A stretch of 64,000 nucleotides of DNA. It comes from Bdellovibrio sp. BCCA (GTDB lineage Bacteria > Bdellovibrionota > Bdellovibrionia > Bdellovibrionales > Bdellovibrionaceae). The position numbers and the translations under genes are program-made. The notes under the pieces are model-generated. The model was not told where the DNA came from. It ran no database searches and saw only the letters and a program-made list of their open reading frames with translations. Positions 45,312 to 50,129 of the stretch are shown here, piece after piece (positions within the stretch are counted from its first letter, which is position 1; every line of letters starts with the position of its first letter). Location of the stretch: positions 1,178,001 to 1,242,000 of the forward strand of contig NZ_JBBNAC010000001.1 of assembly GCF_037996825.1 (NCBI RefSeq), read 5' to 3'.

Positions 45312-46703
45312 ATGGGACAAAGTTTTCGCATAGAAAAAGACACTATGGGTGAAGTGCAAGTGCCAGCAGATAAATTCTGGGGAGCACAAACACAAAGATC
45401 CACGCAGAATTTTCGTATTGGTGGAGACCGTTTCCCTCGAGAAATGATTCGCGCCTTAGGAATTCTTAAAAAATGCGCCGCTTTGACGAATCACAAGCTG
45501 GGTCTTTTGGATCAAAAGAAAACCGATGCCATTGTAAAAGCCGCCGACGAAGTAATCCTTGGAAAACTCGATGCGCATTTTCCTTTGGTGGTGTGGCAAA
45601 CAGGTTCTGGCACTCAAACAAATATGAATGCCAATGAAGTGATTGCCAATCGTGCGATGGACATGATGGGTATTAAACTTCCAAGCAAAGATATTCATCC
45701 CAATGACGACGTGAATAGAGGTCAATCTTCTAACGACACATTCCCAACAGCGATGCACATCGCCGTCGGAGAGCAAATCCATCACCGTTTAATTCCAATG
45801 ATGGAAAAGTTGCACCGCGCTTTGGAGCACAAGCAACAAGACTTTAAAGACATCGTGAAGATCGGGCGCACGCATTTGATGGATGCAACACCATTAACAC
45901 TCGGCCAAGAGTTTTCTGGCTACGCAACTCAAATGAAACACTCCATTCAAAGAGTGAAAAACACGTTGCCGCATCTTTATGAATTGGCCTTGGGTGGAAC
46001 AGCGGTGGGCACCGGACTTAACACTCATCCGCAATTTGCAGAAGAAGCGGCAAAAGCTATTGCTCATGAAACGAAGCTTCCGTTTGTCTCTGCTGAAAAT
46101 AAATTTGAAGCTTTAGCGACTCACGATGCTTTGGTGGAAGTGAGTGGTGCACTGAACTCTGTTGCGGTGTCCTTGATGAAAATTGCCAACGACATCCGTA
46201 TGCTTGGATCTGGACCTCGCTGCGGTATTGGTGAGCTGAATTTGCCGGAAAATGAACCGGGCAGTTCAATCATGCCAGGAAAAGTGAACCCCACTCAGTG
46301 CGAAGCCATGACCATGGTCTGTGCGCAAGTGATGGGAAATAACGTGGCCGTGAGTGTAGGCGGAGCCACGGGGCACTTTGAACTCAATGTGTTTAAGCCT
46401 TTGATTGTTTATAACGTGCTCAACTCAATCCGTTTGCTTGCGGACGCCTGTGAGTCCTTCACGGATCATTGCGTGGTCGGCATTGAAGCAAACACAAAAC
46501 AGATTAAGAAGCACCTCGACAACTCCTTGATGCTTGTAACAGCGTTGAATCCTCACATTGGCTACGACAATGCGGCGAAAATAGCCAAAACTGCTCATAA
46601 AAATGGCACAACACTGCGCGAAGAAGCCATCAATCTTGGACTCCTTTCTGGCGAAGAATTTGATAAGATAGTAAAACCTGGGGAAATGATTGGAGTTAAG
46701 TAG
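45312..46703 (+). CDS. fumC: Class II fumarate hydratase
   Basis: 463 residues. Motifs: [75 protein letters not shown] and the signature [15 protein letters not shown]. Heat-stable iron-independent fumarase converting fumarate and malate in the TCA cycle. GGAG precedes the ATG by 6 nt. The next gene begins one base after its stop. Confidence 0.97.
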
Positions 46704-46704
46704 A

Positions 46705-47634
46705 ATGAATTCGTTGTTGGCAAAAGCGAGCTGGATGGAGCGCGATGATATTCGCCCTTATGTTTTTGTTCGTCCAGAAAATCAAATCGCACTGCCAGGC
46801 TCCGTTCATCGTTTGGATTGGTTTAAAAAAGAACCGGTCTTTAAAGATCCTCTCGATATCAGTGAGATCGCTTTCGCAGATCGCATTTACTCCATCGAAG
46901 AGCGTGCATTTGGTCCTTCGAATATGGCCATGCCTCGTTGGGTTTTTTACGATTGCGCTGTGATGCCAGGCTTTGTTGCGGGATTCGCCGCAAAACCTTC
47001 CGCGCTTACAAAAGAGATGCGTGAAGTTCTTGATCCCAAAAAATATCCAGCAACAGGTTCTCCCATCAAAACATCCGGTGTGATGAAAGAAATCACTTCG
47101 TTGGATGAGATGGACTGGGTGCCATTGTCTCTCTTCATTATCATTCCAACGATGCATCGCGGGGAGTGGGTGGCGCACAATCTGTGTTCGATCAACTCAT
47201 TGCTTCCAGACGGCGGACTTTACGGTCTGGGCTTTCTGTCAAAAGCGTTCGGTTTGTGGTATGCTAACGTCGAACAGTGTTCAGGAATGACTCAGTGGGG
47301 GAGCCCGGCTTTAAAACTACACTCTCACTACGGTCACTTGGAAGTGATCGGTGCTTATGCTCCGGTGCACTCGCATGCAAAGACGATCACGTATCGTGTG
47401 CAAGTAAATACGCACTGCTGGGAAAAGTTCTTCAATAAGGAACCTGACTTGGCGTTCTTGGAAAACTACGGACCAACGGGAACTTTCATTGATCCGAAAA
47501 ATGAAGAGAGCATGTTGAACTTCCAACAGCGCATTGAGCGCAGTGAAGGGCCTTTTTACCTCAGCGCAGGTGAGATCGCTCAAAAGAAGTTAGATGAAAA
47601 ATTGATGATTTATAATTTGAAACAACAATACTAG
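46705..47634 (+). CDS. Conserved hypothetical protein, unknown function
   Basis: 309 residues from ATG 46705 (the frame opening at 46690 is inside fumC). No signal peptide. Notable stretches: PRWVFYDCAVMPGFVAGFA, LSLFIIIPTMHRGEWVAHNL and GLYGLGFLSKAFGLWYANVEQCSG, then HSHYGHLEVIGAY. Several conserved-looking His and Trp residues suggest an enzyme or binding protein, but I do not recognise the family. One-base spacing implies co-translation with fumC. Confidence 0.7.
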   Translation: MNSLLAKASWMERDDIRPYVFVRPENQIALPGSVHRLDWFKKEPVFKDPLDISEIAFADRIYSIEERAFGPSNMAMPRWVFYDCAVMPGFVAGFAAKPSALTKEMREVLDPKKYPATGSPIKTSGVMKEITSLDEMDWVPLSLFIIIPTMHRGEWVAHNLCSINSLLPDGGLYGLGFLSKAFGLWYANVEQCSGMTQWGSPALKLHSHYGHLEVIGAYAPVHSHAKTITYRVQVNTHCWEKFFNKEPDLAFLENYGPTGTFIDPKNEESMLNFQQRIERSEGPFYLSAGEIAQKKLDEKLMIYNLKQQY

Positions 47635-47647
47635 ATAGGAAGAAAAA

Positions 47648-48088
47648 ATGTCGATGAATACCCTGCCCCCTGTCGCGAAGTCTTTTTTTGCGTTCTGTAA
47701 GAAATGTGATGCAGATAGATACCACGTAGTTCTAGCTCACACGTCTTCGACTTCGGCGAAAATCAAATGCGAAATCTGCGGTTCGCAAAAGACGTACTCT
47801 CTTCCGAAAGCGCAAACTCGCACGGGTAAACCATTGACGGGTGCGGCGGCGAAAAAACGTGAGCAAACATTGAACTCACGCAAATCCAGCCACCGCAACG
47901 AATACGAAATGTTGATGTCGAACGAAGGCGCTCCAACGGCGTCTTACAATATGAAGTCTAAGTTTGAGAAAAACACAAAACTTCAACATCCCAAATTCGG
48001 GATGGGTTTCATCAAAGACGCGATGTCTGACAAAATCGAAGTGGTTTTCGAAGACGAAGTTCGCACTCTTATTCACAACCGCACTTAG
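47648..48088 (+). CDS. Small zinc-ribbon protein with a PcrA/UvrD C-terminal-like domain
   Basis: 146 residues. N-terminal ribbon (FCKKCDADRYHVV, then KCEICGSQKTYSLP), a basic linker with PLTGAAAKKREQ, and a C-terminal 35 residues KLQHPKFGMGFIKDAMSDKI, then EVVFEDEVRTLIHN. The last part closely resembles the Tudor-like tail of PcrA/UvrD helicases ('HpkFGeGvV....dki.V.Fed...LIh'), which binds RNA polymerase. The uvrD gene 22 nt downstream seems to lack this tail. I infer a helicase partner that may bridge it to transcription. Confidence 0.7.
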   Translation: MSMNTLPPVAKSFFAFCKKCDADRYHVVLAHTSSTSAKIKCEICGSQKTYSLPKAQTRTGKPLTGAAAKKREQTLNSRKSSHRNEYEMLMSNEGAPTASYNMKSKFEKNTKLQHPKFGMGFIKDAMSDKIEVVFEDEVRTLIHNRT

Positions 48089-48110
48089 TAGTTTTTAGAT
48101 ACGAGATTTC

Positions 48111-50129
48111 ATGGATTGGCTTAAAGGGTTGAACCCCGAGCAGCAGAAGGCCGTAAAACACAATTACGGCCCTTTGCTTATTTTAGCAGGTGCGGGTTCA
48201 GGTAAAACGACGGTTCTTGTTTCAAGAACGGGACGAGTGATTTCTGAAAGAGTCGCACAGGCTCAAGAGATCTGCGTTCTTACGTTCACAAACAAAGCCG
48301 CGCGCGAATTAAAACACCGCGTGCAAGCAAAGTTGGGCAATACTGGGAAAGGTCTCTGGGCAGGGACTTTCCACTCTTTTGGATTGCAAATTTTGCGTCG
48401 TTTTCACAAACACGCCAATCTGTCTCCGTACTTTGGAATCGTCGATCAAAGCGATTGCAATTCCATTCTGAAAGACTTGATTAAAGATATTAAAAATTCC
48501 GGCAAAGATAAATTTGATGTCGATAAAATTCTTTCGATGATCAATGACCGTCGTACGGGCCTTGCCGTGCAAAACGAAGCTTTTGACGAATACCATGAAA
48601 TGGCAGAAGTCTTAGCGCCGAAGTTTGCAAAACGCCTAGAACACTTGGGCGTTGTGGATTTTGAAGGTCTTTTGATTAAACCCTTGCAGCTTTTTAAAGA
48701 GCATCCAGATATTTTAGAAAAAGTTCAAAATTCCTTTAGCCAAGTGATGGTGGATGAGTTCCAAGACACCAATCGCATGCAAATGGATTTGATCGCGCAG
48801 ATCGTAAAGTCTCATAACAACCTCACTGTTGTTGGCGACGACGATCAGTCGATTTACGGCTGGCGTGGCGCGGAAGTAAAAAATATTTTGAACTTTCCGC
48901 AGGAATTCGCGAACTGCGAAGTGATTAAGCTTGAAAGAAATTATCGTTCTTCAGCAGAAATTCTTGCCATCGCCAATGCGGCGATTTCTAAGAATAAAAA
49001 CCGCCATGGCAAGATCTTGCGCTCTCAAGCAGCGCAAGATACAGGCGAACTTCCTGAGTTGTTTGTGCTTGATCGTGAAGAAGACGAGTGTGAATTCGTC
49101 GTTTCTGAAATTTTAAATTTCCAACGCCAAGGTTATAAATACAAAGACTTTGCGATTCTTTATCGTTCGAACACACAAGGGGGCTTGATTGAGTCTTCTT
49201 TGCGTCGTGCGAATATGCCTTACAGTATTTCCGGTGGAACTTCGATTTTTGATCGACGTGAAATCAAAGATTTGATGGCGTATTTAAAACAAGCCTTGGC
49301 TCCGAATGAAGTGTCTCTTCGTCGTATTATCAACGTGCCTTCACGTGGCATTGGTGACACCACGATTGAAAAACTCAGTGAGTTCGCTTTGAAAAAAAGA
49401 ATCAACTTTGTCGACGCCTGCCGTTTCTGGAAGGAAGCCGAAGTGCAAGACAAAGCCGGGGAATCGATTGATAATTTAATGAAATTCATCGAAGACCTTC
49501 CTAAAAACATTTTAGACTTCCAGGTGGGTTCTTCGCCGGGTGCTAAGATGGTTGAGATCTTTCAAAACATCGGTTACCGCGAATACGTCTATGGCACAGC
49601 GGCTGATCCGACAAGTGCTGAAAAAAAATGGATGGTCGTTGAAATCTTTGGTCGTATTTTAGATTCTTACTTAGGTCGTCGCTCCTATGACATTGAAAAT
49701 ATCAAGTCCTTCGTAGACTCGATGCTTTTACGCGATGATATGTCTCAGGAAGAAGAAGAGCCGAATAAAATCCAGCTTATGACTTTGCATGCTTCAAAAG
49801 GTCTTGAGTTCCCTGTTGTTATTTTGGCGGGTCTTGAAGAAGATCTTTTACCGCACAAGAACTTGGGCTCTGATATTGATGAAGAACGTCGTTTGTTCTA
49901 TGTCGGTGTCACTCGTGCGAAAAAACGCTTGGTGATGTCACGCTGTCAGCAACGCAAGAAAAACGGGGCAGTTCGTCCTGTGACGCCTTCAAGATTCCTG
50001 TTGGAGCTTCCGAAGGAACTCTACAAAGAATATCCTCTAGGAGCACGTCCTGTTGTAGGACAAGAGCGTGAGGACCTGGTCGCAAACTTTCTTTCAAAAT
50101 TAGACAGTCAGCTTGGCAGTAAAAAATAA
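48111..50129 (+). CDS. UvrD/PcrA/Rep-type DNA helicase
   Basis: 672 residues. SF1A motifs: LNPEQQKAV (Q), GAGSGKTTVL (I), LTFTNKAA (Ia), VDEFQDTN (II), GDDDQSIYGWRGA (III), LERNYRSS (IV), HASKGLEFPVVILAG (V) and YVGVTRAKKRLVMS (VI). 3'-5' helicase for repair or replication-fork clearing. Domain order is normal, but the chain ends soon after motif VI with no FG-rich Tudor tail. The ribosome site is weak. The small upstream gene appears to encode such a tail. Confidence 0.93.
   Translation: MDWLKGLNPEQQKAVKHNYGPLLILAGAGSGKTTVLVSRTGRVISERVAQAQEICVLTFTNKAARELKHRVQAKLGNTGKGLWAGTFHSFGLQILRRFHKHANLSPYFGIVDQSDCNSILKDLIKDIKNSGKDKFDVDKILSMINDRRTGLAVQNEAFDEYHEMAEVLAPKFAKRLEHLGVVDFEGLLIKPLQLFKEHPDILEKVQNSFSQVMVDEFQDTNRMQMDLIAQIVKSHNNLTVVGDDDQSIYGWRGAEVKNILNFPQEFANCEVIKLERNYRSSAEILAIANAAISKNKNRHGKILRSQAAQDTGELPELFVLDREEDECEFVVSEILNFQRQGYKYKDFAILYRSNTQGGLIESSLRRANMPYSISGGTSIFDRREIKDLMAYLKQALAPNEVSLRRIINVPSRGIGDTTIEKLSEFALKKRINFVDACRFWKEAEVQDKAGESIDNLMKFIEDLPKNILDFQVGSSPGAKMVEIFQNIGYREYVYGTAADPTSAEKKWMVVEIFGRILDSYLGRRSYDIENIKSFVDSMLLRDDMSQEEEEPNKIQLMTLHASKGLEFPVVILAGLEEDLLPHKNLGSDIDEERRLFYVGVTRAKKRLVMSRCQQRKKNGAVRPVTPSRFLLELPKELYKEYPLGARPVVGQEREDLVANFLSKLDSQLGSKK

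Follow-up and report, generated by a model that had tools for sequence, protein, structure and literature searches.

The window that we analyzed is a stretch of 64,000 nucleotides from Bdellovibrio sp. BCCA (contig NZ_JBBNAC010000001.1, positions 1,178,001 to 1,242,000 of the forward strand). Within it, a fumarase gene (fumC), a gene for a protein of ~310 amino acids, a small gene, and a gene for a short helicase form a packed run on one strand (Table 1). Only 22 nt separate the small gene from the helicase gene. The ~310-amino-acid protein had no Pfam match above the cut-off and no NCBIfam match. It is 48 to 71% identical to 13 aligned related proteins from the order Bdellovibrionales, which are usually encoded near fumC. 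Scans for promoter-like sites (four versus 7.2 expected) and terminator-like sites (17 versus 7.7 expected) gave no useful signal, and the short gap before the helicase gene had no terminator-like site on the plus strand.

Table 1. Genes and protein features at the locus (positions in the window)
Feature	Position	Strand	Basis
Class II fumarase (fumC)	45312..46703	+	PF00206 (1.8e-118), PF10415 (4.5e-26); synteny
~310-aa protein, start codon uncertain	46702..47634	+	Most frequent gene upstream of the small gene in Bdellovibrionales
Small protein, 146 aa: zinc ribbon, basic helical linker, and PcrA-type Tudor domain	47648..48088	+	ORF
Zinc ribbon, ~residues 12-54 (Cys C17/C20/C41/C44)	47681..47809	+	Alignments, AlphaFold2 model
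Linker, ~residues 55-91, Lys/Arg-rich	47810..47920	+	Sequence, AlphaFold2 model
PcrA/UvrD-type Tudor domain, ~residues 92-146	47921..48085	+	Profiles, alignments, predicted fold
Short UvrD/Rep-type helicase, 672 aa, without Tudor tail	48111..50129	+	PF00580 (1.5e-78), PF13361 (5e-68)

The AlphaFold2 model of the small protein has a mean pLDDT of 77.5. Its predicted zinc ribbon contains strands at residues 12 to 17, 22 to 31, 36 to 41, and 47 to 51, and the CxxC...CxxC cysteines are invariant among the aligned homologues (45/45 in alignment A4 and 29/29 in alignment A1). The ribbon is matched by several zinc-ribbon families, including Elf1, TFIIS, and L44e, none of which passes its curated cut-off for the window protein (for example, PF05129 scores 15.9 versus 29.8 and PF01096 scores 16.2 versus 21). 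An Elf1-type ribbon was matched by 35 of 45 members of the small-protein family at E ≤ 1, with a best value of 1.1e-4. A PHROGs search gave no convincing match. The linker is predicted to form a helix at residues 66 to 90, part of it at low confidence. Its length differs between homologues, and the C terminus is conserved.

Single-sequence searches were too weak to decide what the C terminus is, and we turned to profiles, folds, and gene order. Two matches of such a search in the organism's own genome, L003 and L004, lie in frames that contain stops and were taken as chance. With phmmer, the tail was matched at a weak E of 1.5. DUF3553 (PF12073) matched the window protein at an E of 0.088 and 12.9 bits, below a cut-off of 20.3 that orthologues in two relatives pass (20.6 in G013 and 20.8 in G038). 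The window protein was absent from PF21196 matches at E ≤ 10, and two of 45 family members matched at E ≤ 1 (best, 0.005). Profiles were more informative. We scanned the organism's own genome in six frames with a profile of 50 tails, no PcrA row among them. Three matches were found at E ≤ 1: the small protein (3.6e-27), a paralogue (3.9e-14), and the tail of the genuine PcrA (6.8e-4). When 177,635 PDB sequences were searched with the family profile, 13 matched, and the top three were UvrD tails (7egt, 0.0068; 7egs, 0.037; 6yi2, 0.046); 7egt is a UvrD tail in complex with UvrB. An hhalign comparison of 70 small-protein tails with 21 PcrA tails gave a probability of 96.3, and the maximum among 30 column-shuffled controls was 21.4.

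Fold comparison was also used. A search with the whole model was dominated by the zinc-ribbon half, which matched eukaryotic Tudor/SH3 barrels, and so the tail was predicted alone. The tail model is a five-stranded barrel (strands at residues 6 to 8, 20 to 23, 27 to 34, 38 to 43, and 47 to 51 of the model) with a mean pLDDT of 80.2, and the Tudor barrel core has AlphaFold2 pLDDT values of ~80 to 88. The best two Foldseek matches of this model were UvrD tails (E of 0.05 to 0.06), and no match reached an E of 0.001. The best four VIA matches were M. smegmatis UvrD1, PcrA (5dma), E. coli UvrD bound to a lobe of RNA polymerase, and UvrD of T. thermophilus bound to UvrB, all PcrA/UvrD tails (Z of 5.7, 5.4, 5.3, and 5.1, respectively), although other Tudor domains, including nonbacterial ones, were within 1 Z unit. 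The match to 5dma covers 41 of 53 residues with an rmsd of 1.6. Fold scores by themselves do not single out PcrA, but sequence profiles do. A PcrA-type Tudor domain at the C terminus of the small protein is therefore well supported by both fold and homology. A first-pass annotation of the locus had noticed a resemblance to the PcrA tail in the gene 22 nt upstream of the helicase and had described it as fused to a zinc ribbon. Both observations were borne out, the first by profile, PDB, hhalign, genome-wide, and fold matches, and the second by the invariant cysteines.

A second stand-alone PcrA-type Tudor domain is encoded in the same genome (L002:1171-1692, corresponding to C1:877027-877548). 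It closes a 173-amino-acid Ala/Pro/Lys-rich protein encoded directly before infA (IF-1; TIGR00008 above its cut-off). Second, tail-only Tudor matches were found in most relatives.

For PcrA, the substitutions H681A, W684A, K712A, and L714A have each been reported to severely lower RNA polymerase binding (PMC5397179). These residues of G. stearothermophilus PcrA correspond to H114, F117, R139, and L141 of the small protein. The correspondence was taken from the end points of the 5dma alignment (model residues 105 to 145 to chain residues 672 to 718), and it holds if the six-residue loop difference falls between the conserved blocks, as sequence alignments show. At these four positions, three overlapping alignments show H, F, K/R, and L without exception (29/29 in A1, 45/45 in A4, and 50/50 in A5). 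The aromatic residue at the W684 position is F, as it is in the E. coli UvrD tail. In RpoB, the PcrA tail is reported to recognize the motif [VIL]DxxTGE[VIL][VILT] (PMC8318588), and the organism's own RpoB has one exact match, IDESTGEII at 332. Prediction, profiles, and conservation together show a predicted Tudor fold and its putative binding face, and the small protein may bind RNA polymerase. PcrA/UvrD tails are also reported to bind UvrB, and changing the Glu of that motif to Ala in B. subtilis UvrB weakened PcrA binding (PMC8318588). The organism's own UvrB (L177) reads IDPLTGQVL, with TGQ where the docking motif has its TGE core.

The first-pass annotation had taken the small protein to be the C-terminal domain of the neighboring helicase, split off or relocated. 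It was correct that the helicase stops soon after motif VI. The distance from this motif to the end is 61 to 114 residues (median, 67) across 60 distinct orthologues, and two further ones, which lack an exact motif VI, have no tail. None of these 62 distinct orthologues has a Tudor tail (60 by script and two by eye), so this helicase had none that could have been lost. The short helicase scored almost the same with TIGR01074 (568.9 bits) and TIGR01073 (568.1 bits), both below cut-off; the Rep equivalog cut-off is 951.45. In an eight-row tree it forms a separate clade, and E. coli UvrD is grouped there with the PcrA of the window's genome. That PcrA is encoded by a separate gene (764 amino acids, from C1:3246540 on) and has its own Tudor tail, as do all 20 PcrA proteins whose genes were taken from related genomes. 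Because PcrA keeps its tail and the neighboring helicase belongs to another clade, the idea of a split or relocated helicase domain was not sustained. The docking motif was sought on the neighboring helicase without a match, and a TGE at 311 is kept in only nine of 62 orthologues. A fourth UvrD-family helicase (L008, C2:142924-143697) is present on a second contig of 209 kb, with an open frame of 525 amino acids and a PF00580 score of 80 bits.

Gene order gave a further view of the helicase. Among 59 relatives, 56 had a match to the small gene at E ≤ 0.001 in a single-sequence search, with tail-only matches counted. In a survey of 59 genomes of the order, the positions of the small gene and helicase were compared by hand, and a full-length small gene was judged by single-sequence search. 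The helicase gene is less than 300 nt downstream of the small gene in 35 of 37 genomes of the window's family; in the remaining two, the gap is ~1.2 kb (G018) or the short helicase is missing (G026). In contrast, the two genes are adjacent in none of the 22 genomes from other families of the order. In seven of these 22, the small gene lies upstream in the same orientation and no more than 2 kb away; in six, the two genes are widely separated or on separate contigs. Of the other nine, two carry just the small gene, three just the helicase, and four neither of them. Over all families, three genomes (G026, G042, and G056) carry the small gene but no short helicase. Therefore, the helicase neighborhood of the small gene is lineage specific, and the survey did not favor the split-tail proposal.

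We also counted neighbors at named loci. This set overlaps the 59 genomes, and its counts are therefore not independent of those above. The counts used 59 loci (L110 to L168) of 65, two of which were short of upstream sequence and five of downstream sequence. The remaining six (L169 to L174) were left out because they had no fumC-type context or only a tail match; L170 is a tail-only Bdellovibrionales match, and the other five were counted separately as Bacteriovoracaceae loci. The ~310-amino-acid gene is directly upstream of the small gene at 56 of 57 loci with enough upstream sequence. The helicase is adjacent at 33 of 54 and farther away at four; it was not seen at the other 17, although some of these contigs are short. 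Genes for LOG, an EEP nuclease, and a sulfite exporter (TauE) are in the same run in some relatives. One locus (L167), from a metagenome-assembled genome labeled Streptomyces griseus, has the typical Bdellovibrionota run (SDR, fumC, ~310-amino-acid gene, small gene, and helicase), and its label is probably wrong.

Outside the order, the small gene has a different neighbor. At 1e-6, 314 of 368 genomes had a match to the family profile, tail-only matches included, and full-length homologues in other families of the phylum are 24 to 36% identical. At all 13 loci examined outside the order, no such helicase, fumarase, or ~310-amino-acid gene was nearby. Instead, uvrC is the divergent neighbor at nine of 10 examined loci. 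It is head to head with the small gene at all five named Bacteriovoracaceae loci and, among the matches listed, in 42 of 43 genomes (the exception is G119), with a match-to-match gap of 115 to 188 nt. Of these 43 listed genomes, family f12 accounts for 42 and f26 for one, and the profile behind the set contained two rows from that clade. Family f12 appears to be Bacteriovoracaceae-like, judging from named loci with the same arrangement (the uvrC-paired loci are L169, L171 to L174, L198, and L200 to L207). The pairing is the inheritance of one clade plus one f26 genome, not 42 independent events. The zinc ribbon has been lost at four of the five named Bacteriovoracaceae loci, where the proteins (L171 and L173 among them) are 85 to 92 amino acids long and consist of a Lys-rich N terminus and the Tudor domain. 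The Tudor domain and uvrC are retained there, and therefore the Tudor domain is the constant part. In the window's own genome, uvrC adjoins uvrB and not the small gene. A Bdellovibrio-type LexA-box pattern matched none of 14 uvrC-side intergenic regions, and of four other SOS-box patterns, one matched once.

Two excision-repair contexts and an intact RNA-polymerase-binding face suggest an independent repair/transcription adaptor. In this respect, the repair/transcription link suggested by the first-pass annotation is likely. We consider the chances about even that the small protein acts on its own as an accessory factor between RNA polymerase and nucleotide excision repair, instead of supplying a helicase with a tail in trans. 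In this model, its Tudor domain would use the same site as the PcrA/UvrD tail, the helicase interaction motif of the RNA polymerase beta subunit. Because of the zinc-ribbon type and the gene neighborhood, the ribbon and basic linker might bind to nucleic acid or to repair proteins (for example, those of the UvrABC machinery). The small protein could then bring repair proteins to a polymerase that has stalled, or it could be a competitor of PcrA at that site. Some observations do not fit this. The most constant neighbor in Bdellovibrionales is the ~310-amino-acid gene beside fumC, which does not suggest repair. Also, the organism's own uvrC is beside uvrB, the uvrC pairing traces to one clade plus one f26 genome, the uvrC-side regions have no Bdellovibrio-type LexA box, the VIA Z values are tied, and no Foldseek match reached an E of 0.001. 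A more specific proposal is that Bdellovibrionota have a dedicated transcription-repair coupling adaptor, in which the Tudor domain reads the RNA polymerase motif instead of, or in competition with, PcrA and the zinc ribbon recruits UvrABC, providing a transcription-coupled repair route besides Mfd and UvrD. We regard this version as speculative and somewhat unlikely.

The small protein might instead serve as a trans RNA-polymerase-binding tail for the neighboring short helicase. The 22-nt gap on one strand, the absence of a tail from the helicase, the close spacing in nearly all of the family, and the seven further genomes with the small gene upstream within 2 kb all fit such a role. However, the genuine PcrA retains its tail, the two genes are adjacent in none of the 22 genomes from other families of the order, three genomes have the small gene without the short helicase and three have the reverse, the partner elsewhere is uvrC, and the helicase has no match to the known Tudor-docking motif. 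Furthermore, Rep, which also has no tail, was reported not to bind RNA polymerase (PMC5397179). A trans tail is possible within one family but leaves the phylum-wide pattern unexplained, and we think this rather unlikely overall. Docking on another motif-bearing partner, UvrB or UvrC, and nothing to do with RNA polymerase, is also an unlikely explanation. It has in its favor the uvrC neighborhood and the binding of PcrA/UvrD tails to UvrB (7egt; PMC8318588). Against it, the exact motif is present in the organism's RpoB, whereas its UvrB has TGQ at the position where loss of the Glu weakened binding of B. subtilis UvrB (PMC8318588). The small protein could also be a generic SH3-like/zinc-ribbon protein associated with nucleic acid or the ribosome, with only a common barrel to liken it to PcrA. 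The tied Z values and the whole-model Foldseek matches, which were L44e-type ribosomal zinc proteins and eukaryotic Tudor domains, speak for this reading. Even so, we consider it improbable. The profile scan of the genome led to the PcrA tail and to nothing unrelated, UvrD tails came first among the PDB sequences by profile, and the invariant residues mark the binding face and not the core alone.

How a repair helicase meets RNA polymerase is decided by the PcrA/UvrD tail, and the importance of UvrD-based transcription-coupled repair in bacteria is a matter of debate. A widely conserved small protein that has only the docking domain and a zinc ribbon, with its binding face intact and with repair genes as neighbors in two classes, would lend itself to testing this. 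In such a protein, docking is uncoupled from helicase activity, and nature may be using it as an adaptor or a competitor at that RNA polymerase site.

Compared with the PcrA/UvrD C-terminal Tudor domain (PF21196; PDB 5dma, 7egs, 7egt, 6yi2, and 9dqs), the small protein has the barrel, HxxFGxG, and the four binding positions in common. It differs in that its Tudor domain is on a small zinc-ribbon protein, not a helicase, and has a loop ~6 residues shorter than that of 5dma. The neighboring helicase resembles E. coli Rep in length and in having no Tudor tail, but it is in its own clade, Rep and PcrA models score it equally, and Rep is a long branch in the eight-row tree. PG1037 of Porphyromonas gingivalis, which has a zinc motif and whose gene lies between uvrA and pcrA, is an analogy only. 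We rejected it as a relative because it is 67 kDa and has another Cys/His motif, and the available text of that report mentions no Tudor domain (PMC3747172). We found no earlier description in the open-licence literature of a zinc ribbon and PcrA-type Tudor domain with a uvrC neighborhood. The closest parallel is DUF3553 (PF12073), which includes the C terminus of mycobacterial DinX and which, as here, places a PcrA-type Tudor domain on a nonhelicase protein; for DinX, similar reasoning led to the proposal that this domain binds RNA polymerase (PMC6511836). DinX is a Y-family polymerase, whereas the small protein joins its Tudor domain to a zinc ribbon and basic linker. Therefore, PcrA-type Tudor domains on nonhelicase proteins are already known, and it is the zinc-ribbon combination and the uvrC context that were not found in the literature searched.
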